Part shown: positions 2,222 to 40,088 of the stretch, piece by piece | Numbering within the stretch: position 1 is the stretch's first letter | Layout: each line of letters starts with the position of its first letter | Assembly: GCA_012839115.1 (NCBI GenBank) | Contig: DUNX01000050.1 | Span: 1-46,762, forward strand | Length of the DNA: 46,762 nucleotides | Source: Bacillota bacterium | Lineage (GTDB): Bacteria > Bacillota > UBA4882 > UBA10575 | Direction: 5' to 3' | Notes under the pieces: generated by a model | Databases searched by the model: none | What the model was told of the DNA's origin: nothing | What the model saw: only the letters and a program-made list of their open reading frames with translations | Made by a program: the position numbers and the translations under genes

Positions 2222-2434
2222 TTAGTCAATTGCAACCGGCTTTAGATCCTTTTTTTCCTTTTCGGTTGCTTCTTTTTGTAAAAATTCTGCCGTTACCTCG
2301 TTGAGGATAGAGATAAGATCTTTTTCCATCTCTTTGGCAAAGCCTTGCATTTCTCCGGGAAGCAATTCCAGTGAGCCATCGATGGTTTGCAGTTTTAGCC
2401 TAATTAAGTTTTTGATTAGTTCTTTGTTTTTCAT
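2222..2434 (-). CDS. Small hypothetical protein overlapping the end of arsA
   Basis: A 70-residue protein if it begins at ATG 2434 (KNKELIKNL...). An in-frame TTG at 2449 is an alternative. The start lies 35 nt inside the 3' end of the ArsA-like gene, which suggests translational coupling. The sequence is an amphipathic, probably helical peptide with no membrane segment, a central LPGEM turn and a charged KEATEKEKKD tail. I do not recognise it. Context suggests it belongs to the MarR-controlled unit and may partner the ATPase. The ribosome binding site is weak (a G-rich stretch), so coding status is moderate. Confidence 0.55.
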   Translation of the reverse strand: MKNKELIKNLIRLKLQTIDGSLELLPGEMQGFAKEMEKDLISILNEVTAEFLQKEATEKEKKDLKPVAID

Positions 2435-3631: not shown

Positions 3632-3656
3632 AAATATTTCTATAGTCGAAATATTT
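3632..3656. promoter_or_regulatory. Predicted MarR operator upstream of the ArsA-like gene
   Basis: A perfect inverted repeat: arms AAATATTTC and GAAATATTT separated by 7 nt, 25 bp in all, 30 bp upstream of the ATG. The site in front of marR (4293-4317) has the same length and matches it at 21 of 25 positions. I infer binding by the adjacent MarR protein. Confidence 0.75.
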
Positions 3657-3695
3657 GTTTTATAAAAAACCCGGGGTCTCGTAAGAGGACTTCCA

Positions 3696-3784
3696 GGTAT
3701 ATCCTGAGGTATATCCGAACAGTATGCCTGGCGTACCGGCGAGGACTACCGCCCCGCGGGGCAGGCAACAGGCATGGGCGGTAG
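3696..3784. other. marR-arsA spacer with a direct repeat and a GC-rich hairpin
   Basis: Two 9-bp direct repeats GGTATATCC (3696-3704 and 3708-3716) are followed by a 9-bp stem CTACCGCCC/GGGCGGTAG (3746-3754 with 3776-3784). An inner CCCCGCGGGG palindrome is an alternative fold. The hairpin sits just beyond the marR stop and may end marR transcripts, though no T run follows on the minus strand. Confidence 0.4.
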
Positions 3785-3794
3785 AGGCGGCAGC

Positions 3795-4277
3795 CTATTC
3801 GATCTTGATTTTTTTGATCATGGTAGTCCCGGGTTTATTTTCTTGCTCTTCCCTGGTTACCTTGTTGAGGGTCCCGATTATTTTGATAAAGATTTTTCCC
3901 AGCAGCTTTTTTTCTTCTTCATTTAGAGACTCTGTAACCGCCCGGTAATAATGGAAGGTCACCTCCTTTATCTCATTTATAAGGTTTTTTCCTTTATCCG
4001 TCGGAGTAACTACGACGATTCTTCGGTCTGCTTCACTTCGCTTCCTCTGGAGATAACCTTTTTTCACCAATCTCTCGACAATGCCTGTGGCGGTACTCAT
4101 GGGAACATTTATGTATTCAGCAATCCGGCTCATGATTATTTCTTCATATCTATCGACAAACAGCAACGCAAGGAGTTCCGACTTGGAAAAGGATAGATCA
4201 AGGTCAATCCAGTCTTGCGGGTAGAGGAGTTTTTTTAGGTTATCCAAAAGCAGGTCGTAAAAACCTTCAAAGTTCAT
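3795..4277 (-). CDS. MarR-family transcriptional regulator
   Basis: A 160-residue protein with the MarR winged-helix plan: N-terminal dimerisation helices, a DNA-binding region around residues 45-105 (ELLALLFVDRYEEIIMSRIAEYI, then STATGIVERLVKKGYLQR) and the wing signature RSEADRRIVVVTPTDKG. MarR proteins usually bind as dimers to AT-rich palindromes and release DNA on ligand binding. The gene has a near-consensus promoter (4325-4353) with a 25-bp palindrome just downstream, so it probably represses itself. A nearly identical palindrome precedes the ArsA-like gene. The inducer is unknown. The basic C-terminal tail (MIKKIKIE) is short and unremarkable. Confidence 0.85.
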   Translation of the reverse strand: MNFEGFYDLLLDNLKKLLYPQDWIDLDLSFSKSELLALLFVDRYEEIIMSRIAEYINVPMSTATGIVERLVKKGYLQRKRSEADRRIVVVTPTDKGKNLINEIKEVTFHYYRAVTESLNEEEKKLLGKIFIKIIGTLNKVTREEQENKPGTTMIKKIKIE

Positions 4278-4292
4278 ATTAATTTCTCTCCC

Positions 4293-4317
4293 GAATATTT
4301 TTATATTCGAAATATTC
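4293..4317. promoter_or_regulatory. Predicted MarR auto-operator
   Basis: Inverted repeat arms GAATATTT and AAATATTC spaced by 9 nt (25 bp), between the marR promoter and its ATG and covering roughly +1 to +25. The minus-strand core AATATTTCGA and the flanking AAATATT are shared with the site at 3632-3656. A repressor bound here would block transcription start. Confidence 0.75.
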
Positions 4318-4324
4318 TAAGATG

Positions 4325-4353
4325 ATAGTATCATTGTTTTTTCCTTCTGTCAA
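4325..4353 (-). promoter_or_regulatory. Sigma-A promoter of marR
   Basis: On the minus strand: TTGACA (perfect -35), a 17-nt spacer and TACTAT (5 of 6 for -10). The start would fall near 4318, at the edge of the operator. Confidence 0.75.
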
Positions 4354-4363
4354 GAGGTAAAGA

Positions 4364-4395
4364 AGGGGCAAGTACAGTATTTCTTCCTGTTTGAC
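4364..4395 (+). repeat. Dispersed intergenic motif, degenerate copy 3
   Basis: AGGGGCAAGTACAGTATTTC followed shortly by CTGTTTGA. It keeps the GGGGCAAGTACA core and the GTTTGA element of the copies at 930 and 2181 but is more diverged. It lies upstream of the marR promoter. Confidence 0.3.
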
Positions 4396-4541: not shown

Positions 4542-4733
4542 GTGGCGAGAAGAGTGTTTAGTGTTTTGGCGGGTTTAGCGGCGGGTGCTGTTTACAGCTT
4601 AGGCTTTATTGGCGCGGCAGTTTACTTAATTCCCCAGGCCACTTCTATTGGCGAAGGGGTCATAGGAGTTCTTAAGGCAATAATCTGGCCGGTTTTTTTG
4701 GTCTACGAATTGCTTGGCTTTTTGGGTGTATGA
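4542..4733 (+). CDS. Small two-segment membrane protein
   Basis: A 63-residue protein from GTG 4542, preceded by AAGGAGG 8 nt upstream, which strongly supports translation. After MARR come two hydrophobic stretches (about residues 6-30 and 41-63) separated by a short polar turn, PQATSIGEG. The N-terminal positive charges suggest an N-in orientation. I do not recognise the family. It stands alone, between the divergent marR promoter region and the 3' end of spoVR. Confidence 0.65.
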   Translation: MARRVFSVLAGLAAGAVYSLGFIGAAVYLIPQATSIGEGVIGVLKAIIWPVFLVYELLGFLGV

Positions 4734-4839: not shown

Positions 4840-4864
4840 TAAAAAAATATCCTTATAAAAGGAT
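4840..4864 (-). terminator. Intrinsic terminator of the prkA-yhbH-spoVR operon
   Basis: On the minus strand, a stem ATCCTT/AAGGAT with a 4-nt loop runs into A followed by seven T. The stem overlaps the spoVR stop codon. Confidence 0.7.
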
Positions 4865-6241
4865 AGAAAGGTTGGATTTTTCGTCACAGTGGATGATCCG
4901 TTCCTCCTTATTGAAACTGGTTTTCAGGGTCACTTTCCCCTTCCAGAGGCCGGCACAATAACGCAGGGTTTCTGTGGCGTAGTTCATTTCCAGGTCACGG
5001 CCGTCGTATTCGTGTTCCAGTAGAAGGTGGTGGTCAAGGGGGCGGTATTCCACGATCCGGATGACGGGGATGGCGCCAAGACCGGTGTTCTTCACCAGCT
5101 GGTTGCGAATGGATTTCCAGCCTTCTTCATCGGCGATCTCTTTGACGATGTATTCGTCTCTTTTTTTCATGTATTCGAAGAGCTCCAGTTCCTTACATAT
5201 CTCCAGGTTCAGGTAACGGCGGAGAAAGGACTCGTCTTTTTCAACCTCCCGGGCTTCAAAGATCTTTTTTTTGCCCTCTTTTTCATGGAGATAGTTGAAG
5301 ATAACGAACCCTATATGGTAAGGGTTAAGACCACCGGGGTTGGGGCGGATTACCTGGTTATGGTATTTATAAAATTCCCAGCGTAACGTCTCCGGGAGGT
5401 CAAGCCGGGAGAGGAGTGCATAATGCCAGAAGCTGGCCCAGCCCTCATTCATGATCTTGGTTTCGATCTGGGGTAGAAAGTAGGCGGTCTCTTCCCGGAC
5501 AATGTTAATAATATCTTTTTCCCACTCTTCAAGGTCGCCGTATTCTGTGATAAACCAGAGGATCTCTTCTTCCGGCTGCGGGGGGATCCGGCGTTTCACC
5601 CCGGCTGTCCCGGCGGTATCCCCCGGCGCGCGCGCTTCCTCCAGCAGGGGATGTTCCGGGATTTTTTCCTGCTCGGACCGGTACTTTCGCCGGTAGTATT
5701 CTTCATAAGAAAGACGGTCTTCTCCCACCACGCGGTTGATCTGGTAGCGCAGGGCATGGGCGGCGTTAAGGAGTTGTTCCACCCGTTCATAACCGATTGA
5801 GGGGTCGCCTGCGTACTCGCGAACCCGGCGCGCGTGGTTTTTGAAGGTCTCGACCGTTAATTCCGCCCGGGTCCCGGCGGTAAAAAGGCGGTTGTTGCGG
5901 AAAAAATCATTATGCCCGTAGACGTGGGCCATGGTCAGGATCTGCAGGAGCAGGCTGTTTTCCTTCATGAGATAGGCTATGCATGGATTGGCGTTGATCA
6001 CCATCTCATAAGGCAATCCGCTTATATTATACTTATACAAGGTTTTCAGCCGGTCGTAGGCCTTGCCAAAGCTCCAATGGGGGTAATGGGAAGGCATACC
6101 GGTATATGCTTGGTAACAGAGCATATCCTCAAAATCACAGAGCTCGAATTCTTGCGTGTAGAAATTCAGCCCTTCCTCTCGGGCCAACTCTTCGATTCTC
6201 TCACCCCAGGCGGCCAGTTCCGCCAAGGTATAACCGGACAT
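4853..6241 (-). CDS. spoVR: SpoVR-family protein
   Basis: A 462-residue protein, typical for the family. The N-terminal half carries the SpoVR hallmarks: REEGLNFYTQEFELCD, the segment YQAYTGMPSHYPHWSFGKAY, NPCIAYLMKENS and HVYGHNDFF. The middle has MNEGWASFWHYALL, and the C-terminal third is the less conserved domain. In Bacillus subtilis SpoVR affects spore cortex formation; its biochemical activity is unknown. It is the last gene of a prkA-yhbH-spoVR operon, 22 nt after yhbH, with its own AAGGAG. Conserved clustering with a kinase and a von Willebrand-type protein argues for one shared process. The operon ends at an intrinsic terminator overlapping this stop. Confidence 0.9.
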   Translation of the reverse strand: MSGYTLAELAAWGERIEELAREEGLNFYTQEFELCDFEDMLCYQAYTGMPSHYPHWSFGKAYDRLKTLYKYNISGLPYEMVINANPCIAYLMKENSLLLQILTMAHVYGHNDFFRNNRLFTAGTRAELTVETFKNHARRVREYAGDPSIGYERVEQLLNAAHALRYQINRVVGEDRLSYEEYYRRKYRSEQEKIPEHPLLEEARAPGDTAGTAGVKRRIPPQPEEEILWFITEYGDLEEWEKDIINIVREETAYFLPQIETKIMNEGWASFWHYALLSRLDLPETLRWEFYKYHNQVIRPNPGGLNPYHIGFVIFNYLHEKEGKKKIFEAREVEKDESFLRRYLNLEICKELELFEYMKKRDEYIVKEIADEEGWKSIRNQLVKNTGLGAIPVIRIVEYRPLDHHLLLEHEYDGRDLEMNYATETLRYCAGLWKGKVTLKTSFNKEERIIHCDEKSNLSILL

Positions 6242-6263
6242 TTTCCCAGCTCCTTTTCCCGGT

Positions 6264-7439
6264 TTACTCCTCCAGCCGTTCCTCCAGGGTGAGCAGTTTC
6301 TTCATGGCGGGAAAGAGGTCTTCTTTATCGGTGATTTTGACCATGGCAAAATTCTTTTCCGCCAGTGTATCCTGGAAGAGGCGGCTGATGGGACTTGTTA
6401 TGTGAAAACCGTCGGGGTCAATTTCGCCGTAGCCAAAAAGATTACAAACTTCACAGAGCTCTTTGACGGCGGCCAAGGCCAGCTCATTGTCTTCGCTCCA
6501 GTTGTCCCCGTCACTGGTGTGAAAGGCGTAAATATTCCAGACCGCCGGGTTGAACCTTTCTTCAATGATCTCCAGGGCCTTCCGGTAGCCGCTACTGATG
6601 AAAGTGCCGCCCGATTCAACCCGGTGGAAAAACTCCTCTTCCCTGACTTCCCGGGCGGTAGTGGTATGGGCGACAAAGACCACTTCCACTTCGGTATATT
6701 TCAAACGCAGGTACTGGTAGAGCAGGAAATAGAAACTGCGGGCCAGATATTTTTTGGTATGGTCCATGGAACCCGAGGTGTCCATGATACAGAAGACAAC
6801 GGCATTGGTCTGCCGCCGTTTTTCTTCACGGATATGACGGTACCTGAGGTCTTCTTCATGGAAGGGAAAACGTTCGTCCTTGGTAAACTCCGGATCCGCC
6901 CGGCGCCGGCTCTGCCGGCGTTTGATTTTTTCCATGACCGAGCGCTTTTTTGCCAGGCGGGGCGGAATGCCTTTCGTCCGGTAACCCAGGCGTTTTTGGC
7001 TAACCACCGTTTCTACTTGTGAAAGTTTTTTTCTTTCCATGTAGGGGAGGTTGAGGTCGTCAAAGATATAGTTGACCAGGTCTTCAATGGTGATCTCCGT
7101 TTCGTAGATCTCCTCGCCCTCTTCCGTCCCGGCGCCACCTTGCCCTTGTCCACGGCTGATCAGATCCTTGGCGATAATATCGCCCCGTTTTTCCTTGCCG
7201 GTTCCCGTGCCGACACCCCCATGGTTCCTGCCGTAAATAAACTGGTACTCTTTTAGGCCACGGATCGGGATTTTGATCTTCTTCTCTTTGCTCTGCCCGA
7301 TGATACTCTCTTCGGCCACGATCTCATGGAGGTTTTTCTTGATCGCCTTCTCCACCAACTGGCGGTGGCGCCGCCGGTCTCCGGCCGAACGGTCCTTTCC
7401 CCCGCTGTTGTATTCGCGGAAAACTGCCATCTTCTCCAC
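6264..7439 (-). CDS. yhbH: YhbH/YeaH-family (DUF444) protein
   Basis: A 391-residue protein with the DUF444 architecture: a basic N-terminus (DRRRHRQLVEKAIKKNL), a Gly-rich acidic linker, a conserved middle (LNLPYMERKKLS, then GIPPRLAKKRSV) and a von Willebrand A-like domain with CIMDTSGSM near residue 215, whose DxSGS can form a metal site. The start chosen is GTG 7439, which overlaps the prkA stop by one base and follows GGAAGG; ATG 7430 is possible. YhbH is needed for normal sporulation in Bacillus and is nearly always linked to prkA. It may act as a substrate or adaptor of the PrkA kinase; that is inference. Confidence 0.88.
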   Translation of the reverse strand: MEKMAVFREYNSGGKDRSAGDRRRHRQLVEKAIKKNLHEIVAEESIIGQSKEKKIKIPIRGLKEYQFIYGRNHGGVGTGTGKEKRGDIIAKDLISRGQGQGGAGTEEGEEIYETEITIEDLVNYIFDDLNLPYMERKKLSQVETVVSQKRLGYRTKGIPPRLAKKRSVMEKIKRRQSRRRADPEFTKDERFPFHEEDLRYRHIREEKRRQTNAVVFCIMDTSGSMDHTKKYLARSFYFLLYQYLRLKYTEVEVVFVAHTTTAREVREEEFFHRVESGGTFISSGYRKALEIIEERFNPAVWNIYAFHTSDGDNWSEDNELALAAVKELCEVCNLFGYGEIDPDGFHITSPISRLFQDTLAEKNFAMVKITDKEDLFPAMKKLLTLEERLEE

Positions 7440-9364
7440 TAATCCTTCCAGAGGTTGTTAGCGGCATATTTCAAGACCACATTGCAACAATGGTCACAGT
7501 AGCCGTTCTTTTTCATCTCCGCCACCATGGCGTTGAGCTTTTCGTTTTGCTCCTTATCCCGCACTTTAGCCCTGGTGATTACCCGCGACAGTTCCTTAAC
7601 CGAGCTGGTGAGTTTTTCTTCGATTGCCTCCTTTAACGGTTCATAGCTCCGGTAGTTTAATTTCCCACCGCTGCGCAGGACATAGAACATGTAGGCGGTG
7701 ACGTCCTGGCGGAAACCTTTGGCCGCCGAGCCGGTAATCCCGATCTGTTCCTCAATGGAGGCCAGGAATTTTTCATCCGGTTCCAGCTCTTCGCCGGTGT
7801 TCCGGTCTTTAATCCTGGCCTTGTTCACAAAGGCCTCGGCGTGGTCCAGGTAGTTGTTGAAGAGGTCTTCGGCCTGTTCGGTAAAGCCGTGGATGAAGGC
7901 TTTGGTGACCTCCCTCTCCAGCATCCGGTGGTACTCCGTTTTCAGGGTGTTTTGAAGATAACTTAAATACCGGCGGCGTTCATCCTCACCGATGGAGAGT
8001 TCCTTAGTCTCTTTGATCAGGCTCTCTAGGATACTGATGGGGTTAATACAATTATTCTCCGATTCCGACAAGGCACGGTCAATCGCCTTGACAATAAAGC
8101 GGGTGGAGATGCCGGTCATCCCTTCCCTGGGCGCCTCCTCCCGCAACTCAAAGATATCAACCCTTTTCACTATCCCTTTTTCCATGATCTCTTCACCGTT
8201 GTAGATCTTTAGCTTGGTCAAGGGGTCAACTTTGCTGGAAGGCGCCAGTCTGCTCAAAATGGCAAACATCGCGGCAATCTCCAGGGTGTGCGGGGCGATA
8301 TGCATGGAAAACCGGCTCTGGCGAAGGATTTTTTGGTAGATCTTGACCTCCTCGCTTAATTCCAAGCAATAGGGGACTTCAACCTTGACGATGCGGTCCA
8401 AAATCGCTTCGTTGGTATGGTCGGATTTGAACTTGTTCCATTCCGCCTCATTGGAGTGGGCAAGAATAATCCCGTCAAAATAGATCATCGGCCCCTTGCC
8501 CGGGGAAGGGATGGCTTTTTCCTGCGTCGCTGTGATCATGGCGTGCAGGTATTCGGTTTCGTTCTTAAAGACCTCAATAAACTCGACAATCCCCCGGTTC
8601 CCCACGTTAAAAGCGCCGTTTAAGGAGAAGACCCGCGGGTCGTCTTCAGGGTAAAGGTCCATTTTGGAAATATCCACCGACCCGATGAGGACCGAAGTGT
8701 CCTGGTTGTTCGGGTCGACCGGCGGCACCACCCCGACCCCCACCCGGCCCCGGATGGAAAAATCGAGAACTTCCACGGGGAAACGTTCATATTCCCCGCT
8801 GTATTCGGCTTTCAAGCGGTAACGGCAAACGGGGCAGAGATCCCCCTCAATATGCACGCCCAGCAATTTACTGAATTTATCCCGCAGGTGCTTTGGGACC
8901 AAATGCAGGGGTTCCTCCCGCATGGGACAACCCTTCAAGGCAAAAACCGGGGGGCTCATCTCCAAACCGCGTTTCAATGCTTCCATGATCGAGGATTTGC
9001 CGGCGCCAACCGGCCCGACCAGGTACAGAACCTGGCGGGACTCTTCGCCCATCATGGCTGCGGAATGAAAATAGCGGACAATCGTCATGATTGTCTCGTC
9101 AATCCCGTAGAAATCTTCGAAAAACTTGTATTTTTTGATAATCTGGTTCCCATAGATCCTCTTTAAGCGGGGGTGTTCTTCGGTCCTGATCGCTTTGGCG
9201 CCTTGTTCCAAAATAATGTCGTACATCCGCTGGTGGGCAAGTTTGACGATGCCGGGGTCCTGCTTCACGAGTTCCAGGTAGTCGAGGAAAGTCCCGGAAA
9301 AATCGGGGTATGTCTTTTTCTCCCGGTCTTTCCTGATTAAATCTTCAAAGGCCTTTCTATCCAC
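7439..9364 (-). CDS. prkA: PrkA-type serine protein kinase / AAA+ protein
   Basis: A 641-residue protein, full length for PrkA/YeaG. The AAA core has Walker A GPVGAGKS at residues 117-124. A cysteine cluster (CPMREEPLH, later CPVC) follows, and the C-terminal kinase-like region ends with CDHCC. PrkA proteins were described as serine kinases and more recently as AAA+ proteases; in Bacillus PrkA affects sporulation through the Hpr/sigma-K route. The start is GTG 9364, with GAGGAGG 7 nt upstream. It is the first gene of the prkA-yhbH-spoVR operon, coupled to yhbH by a 1-nt overlap. I found no clear promoter; sigma-E control would be expected from relatives. Confidence 0.92.
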   Translation of the reverse strand: MDRKAFEDLIRKDREKKTYPDFSGTFLDYLELVKQDPGIVKLAHQRMYDIILEQGAKAIRTEEHPRLKRIYGNQIIKKYKFFEDFYGIDETIMTIVRYFHSAAMMGEESRQVLYLVGPVGAGKSSIMEALKRGLEMSPPVFALKGCPMREEPLHLVPKHLRDKFSKLLGVHIEGDLCPVCRYRLKAEYSGEYERFPVEVLDFSIRGRVGVGVVPPVDPNNQDTSVLIGSVDISKMDLYPEDDPRVFSLNGAFNVGNRGIVEFIEVFKNETEYLHAMITATQEKAIPSPGKGPMIYFDGIILAHSNEAEWNKFKSDHTNEAILDRIVKVEVPYCLELSEEVKIYQKILRQSRFSMHIAPHTLEIAAMFAILSRLAPSSKVDPLTKLKIYNGEEIMEKGIVKRVDIFELREEAPREGMTGISTRFIVKAIDRALSESENNCINPISILESLIKETKELSIGEDERRRYLSYLQNTLKTEYHRMLEREVTKAFIHGFTEQAEDLFNNYLDHAEAFVNKARIKDRNTGEELEPDEKFLASIEEQIGITGSAAKGFRQDVTAYMFYVLRSGGKLNYRSYEPLKEAIEEKLTSSVKELSRVITRAKVRDKEQNEKLNAMVAEMKKNGYCDHCCNVVLKYAANNLWKD

Positions 9365-9872: not shown

Positions 9873-11435
9873 ATGATGAAAAAGAAGAAGGCGCACATCA
9901 AGTATGTAATCGTTTTGTCCCTGGCACTGGTTTTATTTTTTTTACCGGCCTGCCGTTACCAGCCAAAGAATAAAAAGACTCCCCCCTGGATCCCGCCCCC
10001 GCAGGATAGGCCATCGGGTCCGGCCGCTGAAATCAACGAAAAACTCGGTCGCGGCATCAACCTAGGTAACGCCTTGGAGGCGCCGGCCATCGGCGACTGG
10101 GGGATTGTTCTTGAGGCGGAATACTTCAGCCTCATTAAAGAAAAGGGCTTTTCTTCGGTACGGATTCCGATCAGATGGTCCGCTCATGCCCGGTCCGGAA
10201 CCCCGTACACAATTGATGGGAATTTTTTCCATGACTATGTGGACTGGGCGATCGGAGAAGCCCTGAAAAACGATTTATATGCGATCATTAATTTCCACCA
10301 TTATGAAGAGATCTTCGTAAATCCCCATGGCGAGTGGGACAGGTTCCTGGCCATGTGGGAACAGGTGGCGGAGCGGTACAAGGATTACCCGGATAGCCTG
10401 GTTTTTGAGATCTTGAACGAACCCCATAATGAGCTAACCGCCGAACTCTGGAATGAACTGCTGGCGGAAGCCTTGGCGGTGATTAGAAAGACAAACCCCG
10501 ACCGGACGGTAATGATCGGGACCGCCGAGTGGGGCGGGGTTGGAGGCCTTTCTAAACTGAAACTCCCCGACGACGACCACCTGATCCTGACCGTCCATTT
10601 TTACAGCCCTTTTCAATTCACCCACCAGGGGGCGGATTGGACAGATGGTGCCTATGCCTGGCTGGGGACCACCTGGGACGGGAGTTTCTTTGAAAAGCGG
10701 ATACTCATGGATGAACTTTATCCGGTCTACTATTATTCCTGTGCGAATAATATCCCGGTCAACATTGGTGAGTTTGGCGCTTATAGCAAGGCTGATATGC
10801 CTTCACGGGCACTTTGGACCGAGTTTTGCGCCCGCATGTTTGAAGACTACGGATTCTCCTGGCATTACTGGGAGTTTTGCAGCGGTTTCGGGATCTATGA
10901 CCCGAAGGATGAGGTATTCCACGAGGAACTGGTCAATGCTCTTATCTCTGATAACACCAGTGTCTTGGAATTGGGAGACCCGCCGGCAACCGGCGAAGAA
11001 ATGTTGACCAACGGGGATTTTTCCAGTGGCCTTACCGGCTGGGGTTACGGGGCATGGCACAGTCCATACCAGGCTGATTTTAAGGTGGTCAATAACGAGC
11101 TTGTTGTCGATGTAACAACTGCCGGTCCCAAAGGCTGGAACATCCAACTGCTCCAAGACAATATTCCATTGGCGAAAGACCGCCGCTATCTCCTCAGCTT
11201 CGAGGCATGGAGCGACACACCGCGCAGTTTCTCCGCGGGGATTGGCGCGGTGATAGGAAGCAATTTTCCATCATACGGCGGCGCCTCGGTCTTTGTCACC
11301 CCGGAAAAGCGCTGGTTTTATATTCTGGGCACAGCAGCGGAGACATTGACGACCGGACGGGTTTCGTTCAGTTTCGGCAATGAGACCGGCCGTGTTTACC
11401 TGGACAATATCAGCCTCAAAAAAGTGGTGGACTAG
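9873..11435 (+). CDS. GH5-family endoglucanase-like lipoprotein with C-terminal CBM
   Basis: A 520-residue protein. Residues 1-27 are a lipoprotein signal (core VIVLSLALVLFF, lipobox LPAC, Cys27), followed by a Pro-rich linker. Residues about 52-360 are a GH5 barrel: RGINLGNALEAP, VRIPIRW, INFHHYEE, the acid/base motif EILNEPH (Glu183), VHFYSP, and the nucleophile in NIGEFG (Glu300). Residues about 375-518 are a beta-sandwich beginning LTNGDFSSGLTGW and ending GRVYLDNISLK, typical of CBM4/9-type binding modules. It should cleave beta-1,4-linked polysaccharide such as cellulose, xyloglucan or mannan at the cell surface; the substrate cannot be fixed from motifs. The next gene is a close paralogue. 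The start is ATG 9873, with GGAGG 7 nt upstream. Confidence 0.88.
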   Translation: MMKKKKAHIKYVIVLSLALVLFFLPACRYQPKNKKTPPWIPPPQDRPSGPAAEINEKLGRGINLGNALEAPAIGDWGIVLEAEYFSLIKEKGFSSVRIPIRWSAHARSGTPYTIDGNFFHDYVDWAIGEALKNDLYAIINFHHYEEIFVNPHGEWDRFLAMWEQVAERYKDYPDSLVFEILNEPHNELTAELWNELLAEALAVIRKTNPDRTVMIGTAEWGGVGGLSKLKLPDDDHLILTVHFYSPFQFTHQGADWTDGAYAWLGTTWDGSFFEKRILMDELYPVYYYSCANNIPVNIGEFGAYSKADMPSRALWTEFCARMFEDYGFSWHYWEFCSGFGIYDPKDEVFHEELVNALISDNTSVLELGDPPATGEEMLTNGDFSSGLTGWGYGAWHSPYQADFKVVNNELVVDVTTAGPKGWNIQLLQDNIPLAKDRRYLLSFEAWSDTPRSFSAGIGAVIGSNFPSYGGASVFVTPEKRWFYILGTAAETLTTGRVSFSFGNETGRVYLDNISLKKVVD

Positions 11436-11556: not shown

Positions 11557-13092
11557 ATGAAGAAAAAAAGGCTTCTATTTTTTCTTTTTCTAGCCTTGTT
11601 TTCCTTGCCGGCTTATAATCATCTACCGGCAAATTTATTTTCACCTCACCCTCTAGCGCAGGCCGGACCGGCAAAAGCAGCCGTGGAGATCAACAGAAGC
11701 CTCGGCCGTGGTATTAACTTGGGTAACGCGTTGGAAGCCCCGAAAGGCAGAAGCTGGGGGGTTCTGCTTCAGAAAGAATACTTCGCACTCATTAAAGAAA
11801 AGGGTTTTTCTTCGGTACGGATCCCGATCCGGTGGTCCGATTATGCCCTGACCAAAGAACCATACAAGATTGAAGAGAATTTCTTTGCGAAGGTGGACTG
11901 GGCAATCGGGGAAGCCCTGAAGAACGGTTTATCCGTGATCATCAATTTCCACCATTATGAAGAGCTTTTTAAATACCCCCACAGGGAGTGGAGCAGATTC
12001 CTGGCCATGTGGGCACAGGTAGCAAAGCGTTACAAAGATTACCCGGACGCTCTGGTCTTTGAGATCCTGAACGAGCCCCACGATGAGTTAACCGCCGAAC
12101 TCTGGAATGAGCTACTGGTGGAAGCCTTGAAGGTGATTAGAAAGACAAACCCCGGCCGGACGGTGATGATCGGGACCGCCGAGTGGGGTGGGGCTGGATC
12201 CGTCTCGAAATTGGTTCTCCCCGCTGACGACAACCTGATCCTGACCGTCCATTTTTACAGCCCCTTTCAATTCACCCACCAGGGGGCGGAATGGTCGGCG
12301 GGCTCCAGGGCCTGGTTGGGAACAACCTGGGACGGGAGTTATGTTGAAAAGCAGATGATCCGGAATGAACTCGAGCCGGTTCTCTGGTATTCCCGGGAAC
12401 ACGGTATCCCGGTCAACATTGGTGAATTCGGGGCGTACAGCAAAGCCGATATGGCCTCGCGGGCGCGGTGGACAGCGTTTTGCGCCCGGCTTTTTGAAGA
12501 ACTGGGATTTTCTTGGCATTACTGGGAGTTTTGCAGCGGGTTCGGGATCTATGACGCGCGTAAAAAGGTATTCCACACGGAACTGGTGAATGCCCTTATT
12601 TATGAGGACAAAAGCATCCTCGACCCGGGCGGCCTGCCAGCGGTGACCGGTAAGGAAATGGTGGCCAACGGGGATTTCTCCGCCGGTAGTATAGGCTGGC
12701 ATTACGGGGTCTGGCAAAACCCATACCGGGCTGATTTTCGCGTGGTTAACCAGGAGTTTATTGTTGACGTGCAAACCGCCGGCGATGAGGAGTGGCCGGT
12801 TCAGCTGATCAAAGACGGGATCTCGTTAAAAGAGGGCTGCCGCTATCTCCTCAGCTTCGAGGCATGGAGTGACCGCCCGCGTAGTTTCTCCGCGGGGATC
12901 GGTGCGGCGGTTGGCAGTGACTACCCGACATATGGCGATGCTTCGGTTTTTGTCACCCCGGAAAAGCGTAAATATTATGTATTGGGTACGGCCGGGAAAA
13001 CACTGAGCACCGGACGGGTCGTATTTAGCTTTGGCAAAGAAACCGGCCGCGTTTATCTGGATAATGTCAGCTTGAAAGAAGTTGGGAAATAA
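11557..13092 (+). CDS. Secreted GH5-family endoglucanase-like enzyme with C-terminal CBM
   Basis: A 511-residue paralogue of the upstream gene, about three quarters identical by eye across catalytic and binding domains. The N-terminus differs: MKKKR plus a hydrophobic core and a probable signal-peptidase I site near AQA (residues 34-36), with no lipobox Cys, so the enzyme is predicted to be released. The barrel keeps RGINLGNALEAP, EILNEPH (Glu173 acid/base) and NIGEFG (Glu290 nucleophile). The C-terminal module (about residues 365-510) runs from VANGDFSAGSIGW to GRVYLDNVSLK. The two genes arose by tandem duplication. One anchored and one free copy would let the cell attack polymer at a distance and finish it at the surface. 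The gene lies 121 nt after its partner, probably co-transcribed. Confidence 0.88.
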   Translation: MKKKRLLFFLFLALFSLPAYNHLPANLFSPHPLAQAGPAKAAVEINRSLGRGINLGNALEAPKGRSWGVLLQKEYFALIKEKGFSSVRIPIRWSDYALTKEPYKIEENFFAKVDWAIGEALKNGLSVIINFHHYEELFKYPHREWSRFLAMWAQVAKRYKDYPDALVFEILNEPHDELTAELWNELLVEALKVIRKTNPGRTVMIGTAEWGGAGSVSKLVLPADDNLILTVHFYSPFQFTHQGAEWSAGSRAWLGTTWDGSYVEKQMIRNELEPVLWYSREHGIPVNIGEFGAYSKADMASRARWTAFCARLFEELGFSWHYWEFCSGFGIYDARKKVFHTELVNALIYEDKSILDPGGLPAVTGKEMVANGDFSAGSIGWHYGVWQNPYRADFRVVNQEFIVDVQTAGDEEWPVQLIKDGISLKEGCRYLLSFEAWSDRPRSFSAGIGAAVGSDYPTYGDASVFVTPEKRKYYVLGTAGKTLSTGRVVFSFGKETGRVYLDNVSLKEVGK

Positions 13093-36743: not shown

Positions 36744-38177
36744 ATGAAGCACAATAAGAAGTTCGACGTAATCATTTGTGGTGGAGGCACTTCAGGAGTA
36801 GCAGCAGCTATTGCTTCGGCCCGAACCGGAGCAAAGACCCTTCTCATTGAGCGTCTCGGCGCTTTAGGTGGTCAGATGAATGTCTCCGGACCCCCGGGAT
36901 TTGCCTATGCCCGCCTGTTCAACCAGCGCGGCGAGCAAGTTATTGCCGGTATAATTGAAGAGACCCATAAGCGGCTTCTTGAGCAAGGATACGCCCTGCC
37001 TCATAACCATAGCGAATATAGAAAAGGTTCAGGTTATACCTTCTCCTATATTGATCCGGATATGTGGGGGCTTATGATCTTTGACATGATGCAAGAAAAC
37101 GGCGTAGACTTGCTCTTGCACACGCTCGTGGTGGATGTTCTGAAAGACGGTGATAAGGTTACCGGCGTGGTCGTTGAGAATCCCAACGGAAGAGTGGAAA
37201 TAGAAGGGAAAATAGTGATTGACTGTACCGGGGAAGGGTATATTGCCCACAGGGCGGGCGCCCCTTCAGAGAAGGTTCCCCGGGAGGAATTGCAACCCCA
37301 CACACTAGCCTTTACCTGTGACGGAGTTGATTGGGATGAGTTTCTGGCCTATGTGAGAGCCAATCCCAGAGACTTTGTGGGTTGTGAGGTTCCCGGCCGG
37401 ACGGATGAAGAGATGTACGAGATTCTGAGCAAAACAGATAATATTATTGACCTGGGAGAGATGAGGGGCTTCTTTTCCATCTTGAAAAAGGCTCTTGCCA
37501 ACGGAGAATGGCACGAGTTTAGTGGTATGGGCTTTTTTATCATGCCCAAGGGGGATGAGAAGAACAGGAGGATACTTGCGCATTTCCAGCATTCATCGCA
37601 TGTTCCCGGGCGCGATCCCGATGATGCCTGGGACCTGACCTATTGTGAGATTGAAGCCAGAAGACAGATTCAGATTGCTTTTAACTGCTTCAAGAAATAT
37701 GTCCCTGGTTTTCAGAACGCCTATATCGTCAGGGTCTGTCCGGAGATTAGGATCCGTGAAGGCAGAAGGATTATTGGTGACTACTACCTGACAACTGAAG
37801 ACGTTGGCGCCGCCAGGAAATTCCCGGACGTAATCGGGAAGAGCGCTTTTCCCGCCGGGGGGCATCATGTCGCTTCCACCGAGACATTGGCGCACGGCAG
37901 GGTCCGGCCGAAAGACGGTGGTTCCCATGACATTCCCTACCGGTGCTTGGTTCCTAAGGAGGTAGAAAACCTTTTGGTTGCCGGGAAAGCGATCTCTACA
38001 GATCGGGATTCCTACCATCGCTTCCTGCAACAGACCATGGTCACCGGCCAAGCGGCGGGGGTAGCGGCCGCCCTCTGCGTCAAGCAAAACATTACCCCCA
38101 GGGAACTGGAGAATGACGTCTCTGAGCTACAGCGAATCCTCCAGGAGCAAGGCGCTATCCTTTACGGCACCCACTAA
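36744..38177 (+). CDS. FAD-dependent oxidoreductase, copy 1
   Basis: A 477-residue protein with AAAGGAGG upstream. The N-terminal Rossmann motif is DVIICGGGTSGVAAAIASA (residues 8-26), with the FAD-contacting Glu-Arg in LLIERLGALGGQ. VIDCTGEGYIAHRAGA closes the FAD domain, and a C-terminal VPKEVENLLVAGKAIS then QTMVTGQAAGVAAALC completes the PF12831-type FAD_oxidored fold. There is no iron-sulfur Cys cluster, signal peptide or haem motif, so it is cytoplasmic and probably uses a soluble acceptor. It would oxidise or reduce the substrate imported by the TRAP system. Copy 2 at 38655 has exactly the same length and roughly 80 percent identity. Confidence 0.85.
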   Translation: MKHNKKFDVIICGGGTSGVAAAIASARTGAKTLLIERLGALGGQMNVSGPPGFAYARLFNQRGEQVIAGIIEETHKRLLEQGYALPHNHSEYRKGSGYTFSYIDPDMWGLMIFDMMQENGVDLLLHTLVVDVLKDGDKVTGVVVENPNGRVEIEGKIVIDCTGEGYIAHRAGAPSEKVPREELQPHTLAFTCDGVDWDEFLAYVRANPRDFVGCEVPGRTDEEMYEILSKTDNIIDLGEMRGFFSILKKALANGEWHEFSGMGFFIMPKGDEKNRRILAHFQHSSHVPGRDPDDAWDLTYCEIEARRQIQIAFNCFKKYVPGFQNAYIVRVCPEIRIREGRRIIGDYYLTTEDVGAARKFPDVIGKSAFPAGGHHVASTETLAHGRVRPKDGGSHDIPYRCLVPKEVENLLVAGKAISTDRDSYHRFLQQTMVTGQAAGVAAALCVKQNITPRELENDVSELQRILQEQGAILYGTH

Positions 38178-38654: not shown

Positions 38655-40088
38655 ATGAAACACGAAACCGGGTATGATGTCATTGTCTGCGGAGGCGGTA
38701 CTTCGGGAGTGGCGGCCGCCATTGCTTCGGCCAGAACCGGGGCAAAGACCCTGTTGATTGAACGTCTTGGTACTTTGGGTGGGCAGATGAACGTCTCCGG
38801 ACCGCCGGGGTTCTCCTACGCCTGGCTCTTCAACCAACGCGGCGAGCAGATCATCGCCGGCATCGTTGAGGAGACCCACAAACGCCTTTTGGAAATGGGC
38901 TATGCTTTACCGCATAACCACAGCGAATACCGGGAGGGTTCAGGCTTTACCTTTTCCTATGTCGACCCGGATTGGTGGGGGCTCTTGATCTTTAACATGA
39001 TGGATGAAAACAACGTCGATCTGCTCCTCCACGCTATGGTAGTTGATGTGTTAAAAGAGGGAGACAAGGTCACCGGCGTAGTCGTGGAGACCGTCGGCGG
39101 CAAGCTTGAACTGAAGGCCAAGGTTGTTATTGACTGCACCGGTGAAGGCTATGTGGCGGTGCAAGCCGGCGCCCCTACAGATATGGTTCCGAAAGAAGAA
39201 TTGCAACCACATACCCTCGCCTTTACCTGTGACGGTGTGGACTGGGACGAACTTCTTGCCTATGTACGGGCTCATCCTGAAGAATTTGTCTATCCCAATG
39301 TCCCCGGCCGTTCAGCAGAGGAGACCTGTGAGATTTTGCGAAGGGTAGAGGATGTGTGGGAACTCGGAGAAATACGAGGTTTTGCCTCCATCCTTGAGAA
39401 GGTGATGGAAACCAAAGAATGGCATGGCATGAGCGGTCTGGGCTTTTTCCTCATGCCAAAGGGCGATCCCAAAAACCGGCGAATCCTGGCACATTTGCAG
39501 CATTCGTCGCATGTTCCCGGCCGCTCGCCTTATGACCCCTGGGACCTCACCTATTGCGAGCGGGAGACCCGCAGGCAGATCCAGATCGCCTTTAAAGTCT
39601 TTAAGAAATATATGCCCGGCTTCAAAAACGCCTATATCACCAGGGTTTGCCCGGAACTCCGGATTCGTGAAGGCCGGAGAATTGTTGGCGATTACATCTT
39701 GACCCGTCAGGATGTGGCCGAGGCGAAGAAATTTCCTGATGTCATCGGGAAGAGCGGTTTCCCCGCCGGCGGCCACCATATCGCCAGTACCCAGACCATA
39801 GCCACTGACAGCGTGTGGCCGAAAGACAGGGGTTCCCATGATATCCCCTACCGGTGCCTGGTACCGAAGGAAGTCGAAAACTTCCTGGTTGCCGGTAAAG
39901 CGATCGCCACGGACCGTGACGCTTATCACCGCTTCCTGCAACAGACCATGGTCACCGGCCAGGCGGCGGGGGTGGCGGCCGCCCTCTGCGTCAAACAGAA
40001 CATTACCCCCAGGGAACTGGAGAAAGACCTCTCTGAACTGCAGAAAATCCTCCAGGAACAAGGCGCCATCCTTTACGGCACCCACTGA
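38655..40088 (+). CDS. FAD-dependent oxidoreductase, copy 2
   Basis: A 477-residue paralogue of the 36744 gene, with AAAGGAGG upstream. It has the same motif order: DVIVCGGGTSGVAAAIA, LLIERLGTLGGQMNVSGPPG, IDCTGEGYVAVQAGA, VPKEVENFLVAGKAIA and QTMVTGQAAGVAAALC. Differences cluster in the middle (residues about 205-250), which may adjust substrate choice. The last 140 bp are about 90 percent identical in DNA to copy 1, higher than the middle, hinting at recent gene conversion. The two copies may form a heteromer or act on related substrates. A decayed DUF554 gene lies just upstream, and an 18-bp hairpin ends the operon. Confidence 0.85.
   Translation: MKHETGYDVIVCGGGTSGVAAAIASARTGAKTLLIERLGTLGGQMNVSGPPGFSYAWLFNQRGEQIIAGIVEETHKRLLEMGYALPHNHSEYREGSGFTFSYVDPDWWGLLIFNMMDENNVDLLLHAMVVDVLKEGDKVTGVVVETVGGKLELKAKVVIDCTGEGYVAVQAGAPTDMVPKEELQPHTLAFTCDGVDWDELLAYVRAHPEEFVYPNVPGRSAEETCEILRRVEDVWELGEIRGFASILEKVMETKEWHGMSGLGFFLMPKGDPKNRRILAHLQHSSHVPGRSPYDPWDLTYCERETRRQIQIAFKVFKKYMPGFKNAYITRVCPELRIREGRRIVGDYILTRQDVAEAKKFPDVIGKSGFPAGGHHIASTQTIATDSVWPKDRGSHDIPYRCLVPKEVENFLVAGKAIATDRDAYHRFLQQTMVTGQAAGVAAALCVKQNITPRELEKDLSELQKILQEQGAILYGTH

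Follow-up and report, generated by a model that had tools for sequence, protein, structure and literature searches.

The window, by which we mean the whole stretch of 46,762 nucleotides analysed here (Bacillota bacterium, assembly GCA_012839115.1, contig DUNX01000050.1), carries on its minus strand a cassette in which a promoter, a first candidate operator, a marR gene, a second candidate operator, an arsA/get3-like gene and a small partner gene follow one another (Table 1). The small gene can alternatively be read from an upstream TTG at 2449, which would extend its product to 75 aa, and the small partner proteins matched no family above cut-off in Pfam or NCBIfam. The tRNA and Rfam searches of the window likewise returned no match.

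Table 1. Features of the marR-arsA cassette, in window coordinates
Feature	Position	Strand	Remarks
marR promoter	4325..4353	-	TTGACA-17-TACTAT, TG before the -10
Operator 1 (putative)	4293..4317	.	25-bp dyad immediately downstream of the marR -10; 23-bp core AATATTTCG-N5-CGAAATATT
marR, 160 aa winged-helix regulator	3795..4277	-	PF01047, 43.4 bits
MarR residues 144-160, disordered linker and C-terminal IKKIKIE tail			AlphaFold pLDDT under 50, from an input alignment of 2 sequences only
Operator 2 (putative)	3632..3656	.	25-bp dyad between marR and arsA
Possible intrinsic terminator, marR-arsA gap	3669..3698	-	hairpin of -10.6 kcal/mol, then T's
arsA/get3-like gene, 400 aa	2400..3602	-	PF02374 and PF17886, AlphaFold model, match to 8egk
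Small partner gene, 70 aa from ATG	2222..2434	-	overlaps the arsA 3' end; product ends LKPVAID

Several other features of the window were recorded. A divergent ORF of 63 mostly hydrophobic residues lies upstream of marR (4542-4733, plus strand); it has no family match in Pfam or NCBIfam and could encode a membrane client or be a chance frame. Beside the cassette, three successive genes resemble by eye spoVR, yhbH (DUF444) and prkA (4853-9364, minus strand). Short GGGGACAGGTACAC-like stretches, again spotted by eye, recur around the cassette at about 932-957, 2181-2212 and 4363-4385 of the window and at about 1430-1485 of L004, a locus at the same genome place as L124 in whose marR-arsA gap an inverted pair GGGGACAG...GTGTCCCC was also seen by eye; these stretches and the inverted pair look like what is left of a repeat or of a mobile element. 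On the plus strand, the window further encodes a protein whose membrane part is PsiE-like and whose C-terminal domain is CorC_HlyC-like (317-931), two proteins in tandem that look exported and finish in near-identical sequences (FSFGxETGRVYLDNxSLK; 9873-11435 and 11557-13092), and two ORFs of 477 residues with near-identical starts and identical ends (36744-38177 and 38655-40088), which by eye are apparent tandem copies of an FAD-type oxidoreductase.

The order marR, arsA, small gene recurs in eight loci (the window, L124, L125, L126, L127, L128, L129 and L033), the small gene of L128 being a shortened frame. The loci considered throughout come from the best 80 matches of one scan of named genomes and from samples of one phylum, with genes called by crude scripts. 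ArsA relatives with 64-67% identity occur elsewhere in the phylum, outside the window's family, and one was met in a MAG of Dethiobacter alkaliphilus (L033); the ATPase is present in one of 16 genomes of the window's own family. Across 398 sampled genomes of the phylum, an ATPase carrying the HSP20 domain described below was detected in 11 (E<=1e-60) and MarR orthologues in eight (E<=1e-25), all of which belong to those 11. The G+C content of the cassette genes is 40-45%, as against 52% for the adjoining spoVR-prkA stretch. The patchy distribution and the base composition, the two observations that bear on transfer, fit a cassette that may move between lineages as a unit.

Operators and promoters of the cassette

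The first-pass annotation had described two matching 25-bp dyads ahead of arsA and marR, and the description holds: the two sites agree at 21 of 25 positions and form 10 of 12 (3632-3656) and 9 of 12 (4293-4317) dyad pairs. It had also placed the marR site after a near-perfect promoter; the placement is right, the promoter ending at 4325, eight bases ahead of operator 1, and only the adjective is a little strong for a consensus match of 10/12. Matches to a candidate arsA promoter in the intergenic region are ambiguous (7-9/12).

Further copies of the motif were sought in the window's own genome (2,345,370 bases in 148 contigs, 96.89% complete). The two-site consensus, allowing up to 3 mismatches, returned the two cassette sites and no third, and the ideal dyad AATATTTCG-N5-CGAAATATT at the same threshold again returned just these two; the reversed control pattern for the ideal dyad gave one genome match per strand, and shuffled windows held 0 consensus matches. 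The motif is thus not common genome-wide, and a broad MarR regulon is ruled out by the lack of a third genome site within 3 mismatches.

The same arrangement is conserved in the related cassettes. In all eight, a TTGACA box and a -10 element lie at a similar place and are followed by AATATTTCG-N5-CGAAATATT, a 23-bp dyad that keeps 15-17 of 18 fixed positions and whose score was reached by 0/500 dinucleotide shuffles in seven loci and by 1/500 in the remaining one. A palindromic operator at the regulator's own promoter, as is known for the MarR family, is therefore present, by sequence, in 8/8 loci. In L033, whose marR start was taken as 5391, TTACG/CGTAA replaces TTTCG/CGAAA in the marR-side dyad, a compensatory change in which both arms are altered and the dyad is kept. 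The second copy, located in the marR-arsA gap, retains 14-17 of 18 positions with 0/500 shuffles reaching its score in six of the eight loci, and is weak in L033 (13 of 18; 19/500 shuffles) and L124 (12 of 18; 43/500). Hairpins of -8 to -10 kcal/mol precede the second operator in L125, L126 and L127 and may end the marR transcript, while in L033, L124, L128 and L129 a terminator hairpin was weak or not found. Taken together, the gene order and the dyads in eight loci, with no other sites in the genome, uphold the earlier proposal of a MarR regulon that contains the Get3/ArsA-type ATPase and the 70-residue partner, and we hold it very probable that the dyads are the operators of such a regulon.

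The ATPase and its C-terminal domain

The product of the arsA/get3-like gene matches PF02374 with 324 bits and, at its C terminus, the ArsA_HSP20 family PF17886 with 77.6 bits, so that a Get3 ATPase (about residues 1-305) is followed by an alpha-crystallin/HSP20 domain (about 317-388). Seven strands are predicted in the latter (317-322, 325-331, 340-345, 348-353, 356-361, 369-377 and 380-388). The P-loop GKGGVGKT is invariant across 39 sequences, which is also the depth of the alignment behind the AlphaFold model (mean pLDDT 85). The best matches among solved structures are archaeal TRC40 (3zq6, Z 30.3 over 272 residues) and, at full length, Nostoc Get3d (8egk, Z 29.7, rmsd 5.3, 348 residues across 1-388) and Arabidopsis Get3d (8elf, Z 25.8); there is no small heat-shock protein (sHSP) among the structural matches listed, which are filled by matches to the ATPase domain. 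Of the three cysteines (46, 120 and 132) C132 alone is conserved, and the protein has neither a CXXC zinc motif nor a cassette-specific cysteine.

Like Get3d, the ATPase consists of one Get3 unit followed by an alpha-crystallin domain at the C terminus, and with Get3d it shares, besides this domain composition, the lack of CXXC and the structural match over residues 1-388. Barlow et al. (2023, PMC10248533) describe Get3d (Arabidopsis At1g26090, Nostoc All4481) in plants and photosynthetic bacteria, and they call the role of its alpha-crystallin domain unclear and its partners unknown. In a tree of 50 rows without plant sequences, the window ATPase joins the seven other cassette rows (SH-aLRT 99) and stands outside the cyanobacterial clade, which forms a separate group. 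It differs from Get3d also in its setting, a cassette that would be controlled by MarR.

C-terminal tails on MarR, the small partner and their counterparts

Neither the HSP20 domain nor the IxI tails shared by MarR and the small partner figure in the first-pass annotation, and the main result lies beyond the coordinates with which it dealt. In all nine MarRs that lie beside an HSP20-type ATPase (those of the eight cassettes and of L132), a linker of variable sequence leads to the ending [IVL][KR][KN]I-x-IE. Across the eight cassette MarRs, identity reaches 75% in the last 7 residues, 16% in the preceding 20 and 56% in the core. Since the codons of the tail vary synonymously, its action as a DNA or RNA element is disfavoured. 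In the window, the small protein has an I/V-x-I/V-acid tail in common with MarR, and the small proteins of the cassettes, which are dissimilar to MarR, finish in a like manner (LKPVAID, IKPINILTLL, LDNILIE, LNSVPIE, LDDIPIE, LYNVPVD, VRKVEIQ and IKAIVVDE), three of them with the IPV-like forms VPI, IPI and VPV. Among 30 MarR loci examined from eight genomes with an HSP20-type ATPase, which are part of a longer list of MarR matches, the five adjacent to the ATPase are tailed and none of the 25 others has an I/V-x-I/V tail. When a single tail of 21 residues served as phmmer query, nothing useful was obtained.

These comparisons bear on two other explanations of the locus. As a rule, MarR regulators respond to a ligand or to redox state, and the operators and autoregulatory layout seen here are standard; the cassette might accordingly be an ordinary MarR operon, in which a small molecule relieves MarR and the tail is either without influence on regulation or only brings MarR and the ATPase together. 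Such an operon would leave unaccounted for a tail that is missing from the 25 other MarRs examined from the same genomes, conserved far above the linker and common to an unrelated partner, and we consider it rather unlikely. The tail could instead be a stability signal, MarR being degraded or misfolded unless the ATPase, as a chaperone, covers its C terminus; a short tail behind a disordered linker would suit this role. Common C-terminal degrons, however, are unlike a tail that ends in a charged residue, and the partner, which is no regulator, carries the same tail. Chaperone-dependent regulators do exist, as in toxin-antitoxin-chaperone modules (PMC5105189), which the stability signal would resemble, and in the case of HspR (PMC10415612), and with this precedent counted the stability signal is still improbable.

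The tail is not confined to the cassette. Short ORFs that adjoin HSP20-type ATPase genes end in tails of the same type in Chloroflexota (L034 TRIEVQ, L035 TKIKVQ), Planctomycetota (L036 KKVKIG), Actinomycetota (L039 ERIRID, L046 QKIEIE), delta-type proteobacteria (L047 TRVRVE, L048 AKIRVE, L054 AKIEVEE), Acidobacteriota (L065 TKVTVE), archaea (L069 KKIDVS, L055 NKIEIK, L064 ERIEID) and the window's phylum (L130 and L131, both RKIEIE). In L132 (5864-9102) and L056 (54-2559), two HSP20-type ArsA genes stand in tandem and enclose a gene for a tailed small protein; in L132 a tailed MarR stands ahead of the pair.

Among the matches listed, an adjacent ORF on the same strand carries the generic tail at 25/59 HSP20-type genes, compared with 4/64 ArsA/Get3 genes without HSP20 (Fisher p 1.8e-6), and a stricter tail, worded after examples had been seen, at 25/59 and 2/64 (p 8.9e-8). 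The 59 genes include the eight cassettes of shared descent, the removal of which leaves, by subtraction, 17/51; the small protein of L128 falls below the length limit of these neighbour counts and of the offset counts. In background ORFs of at least 100 aa, the generic and stricter tails were found in 73/2372 and 7/2372, respectively. The position of the motif is also specific, I/V-x-I/V lying exactly one residue from the end in 29/121 ORFs that adjoin HSP20-type ArsA genes versus 15/2502 others, with no comparable excess at eleven other offsets (range 0 to 11), of which the next highest gave 4/121 versus 26/2502. A chance origin of the tail is ruled out by this offset control, by the ArsA/Get3 controls without HSP20 and by the other MarRs. 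Once their last 11 residues are removed, the tailed proteins form one loose group of 18 small proteins and another group of 9 MarRs, with 5 singletons besides.

A tailed neighbour is absent from 34/59 HSP20-type genes among the matches listed, including all cyanobacterial and green-sulfur ones, which in this respect differ from the window; the HSP20 domain can therefore work without a tailed protein nearby, and any partners of these ATPases would be encoded elsewhere. When tailed ORFs were sought elsewhere in 23 untailed loci, only scattered matches were obtained. On the 50-row tree, the tail label requires 8 changes, as against 16.9 when labels are shuffled, and is present on either side of the deepest split, L058 and L133 having been labelled as tailed by hand, here and in the residue comparison, as their motif is further from the end than the script limit. 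The tail may be ancestral with losses, the deep forks of the tree being weakly supported. In the HSP20 domain, F334 and K/R337 occur in 27/27 tailed rows and in 11/23 and 10/23 untailed rows, respectively, with no more than 3 pairs in the comparison that are phylogenetically independent. Tailed and untailed rows are likewise separated by K357 and by several positions in the ATPase.

Directly before the HSP20-type ArsA gene of L133 lies a winged-helix regulator (6135-6692) that is of another kind than the MarR of the cassette and ends in VKEIEIDWDE. Its best family matches are HTH_20 and HTH_11, with MarR weaker still and all below cut-off, and it is one of the 5 singletons; convergence is a possible origin of its tail.

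A candidate feedback circuit

The literature on sHSPs and their partners offers two precedents for such tails: the IXI motif of the sHSP C terminus binds the alpha-crystallin domain in a groove along its beta4/beta8 edge (PMC3638399), and the IPV motifs of BAG3, a non-sHSP protein that binds sHSPs, mimic IxI/V (PMC9346034). The cassette has in common with sHSPs an I/V-x-I/V motif near a C terminus and an alpha-crystallin domain; in sHSPs the tail and the domain belong to one protein, whereas in the cassette the tail is found on the repressor and the small protein and the domain on the ATPase. With BAG3 it shares a protein outside the sHSP family that bears an IxV-type motif, BAG3 being, in contrast, a eukaryotic scaffold that involves no transcription factor and no Get3.

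Since the C-terminal domain of the ATPase is the sole alpha-crystallin domain in the cassette, the tails of MarR and of the 70-residue partner, which would represent the motif that sHSPs place in the beta4/beta8 groove, most likely dock there, and on the strength of the sequence comparisons the tail is probably a motif by which proteins dock to the HSP20 domain. A caution concerns access to the groove: for Get3d, Barlow et al. find that the alpha-crystallin domain forms neither dimers nor oligomers and that it packs on the ATPase (PMC10248533).

The reading that we favour by a little is a self-regulated cassette, in which MarR, the partner and the ATPase are coupled through the HSP20 domain in a feedback like that of HspR and DnaK. 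A MarR dimer would bind the 23-25-bp dyad across its own transcription start and the second copy ahead of arsA, and would thereby repress both marR and arsA, the operators being supported by their conservation. By their tails, the MarR dimer and the partner would compete for docking on the pair of HSP20 domains that an ATPase dimer offers, and the circuit would in this way read the amount of free ATPase in the cell. An ATPase that is not busy with the partner or with a client would hold MarR and keep expression of the cassette low, in the manner of DnaK and HspR, and once clients or the partner fill the ATPase the cassette genes would be released. The opposite sign may also apply, with the ATPase titrating MarR off the DNA. 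Whether the activity of MarR responds to ATPase occupancy is a proposition on which we see the balance as even, and arrangements besides feedback are compatible with the anatomy of the cassette. HspR is a MerR-type repressor that works with an Hsp70, whereas the cassette pairs a MarR with a Get3-type ATPase and uses another docking code. The resemblance would lie in the repressor of a chaperone operon being bound at its C-terminal region by the chaperone, which thereby acts as co-repressor. This is reported for HspR and DnaK (PMC10415612), and in the cassette it is the layout alone that is seen.

An operon for a pump of arsenite or another anion, in which MarR would stand in for ArsR and to which the name of the gene family and the NCBIfam match of the ATPase to TIGR00345 (Get3/ArsA) would point, is highly implausible, the arsenic pump being ruled out by the single ATPase unit without tandem halves, by a TIGR04291 (arsenical ArsA) score of 98.4 bits against a cut-off of 650, by the failure to find ArsD, the ars partner gene tested, in the window's own genome (it is present in 3/7 cassette genomes), and by the cysteines. 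The anion-handling role once suggested for the locus finds no support on the same grounds, and a chaperone or membrane-protein role fits Get3d better.

In the literature searched, mostly without subscription papers, we found no report joining MarR, ArsA/Get3, the alpha-crystallin domain and IXI, and Get3, alpha-crystallin and ArsA met only in Barlow et al. (2023). The Get3d-like ATPase and MarR autoregulation are known already, and the part likely to surprise a specialist is the link by IxI tails of a repressor, a partner and an HSP20 domain. We give about an even chance to the joint reading that MarR took over the sHSP docking tag, with the Get3-HSP20 ATPase reporting its own occupancy to its operon, and that, more broadly, bacterial and archaeal Get3-HSP20 proteins have dedicated IxI-tailed small partners for which the alpha-crystallin domain is the tail receptor. 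The tails suggest a ligand for the Get3d-type alpha-crystallin domain and also which bacterial and archaeal proteins may be partners of such ATPases, and, if the MarR tail docks, the cassette would be a bacterial circuit in which an sHSP-type contact carries regulatory information.
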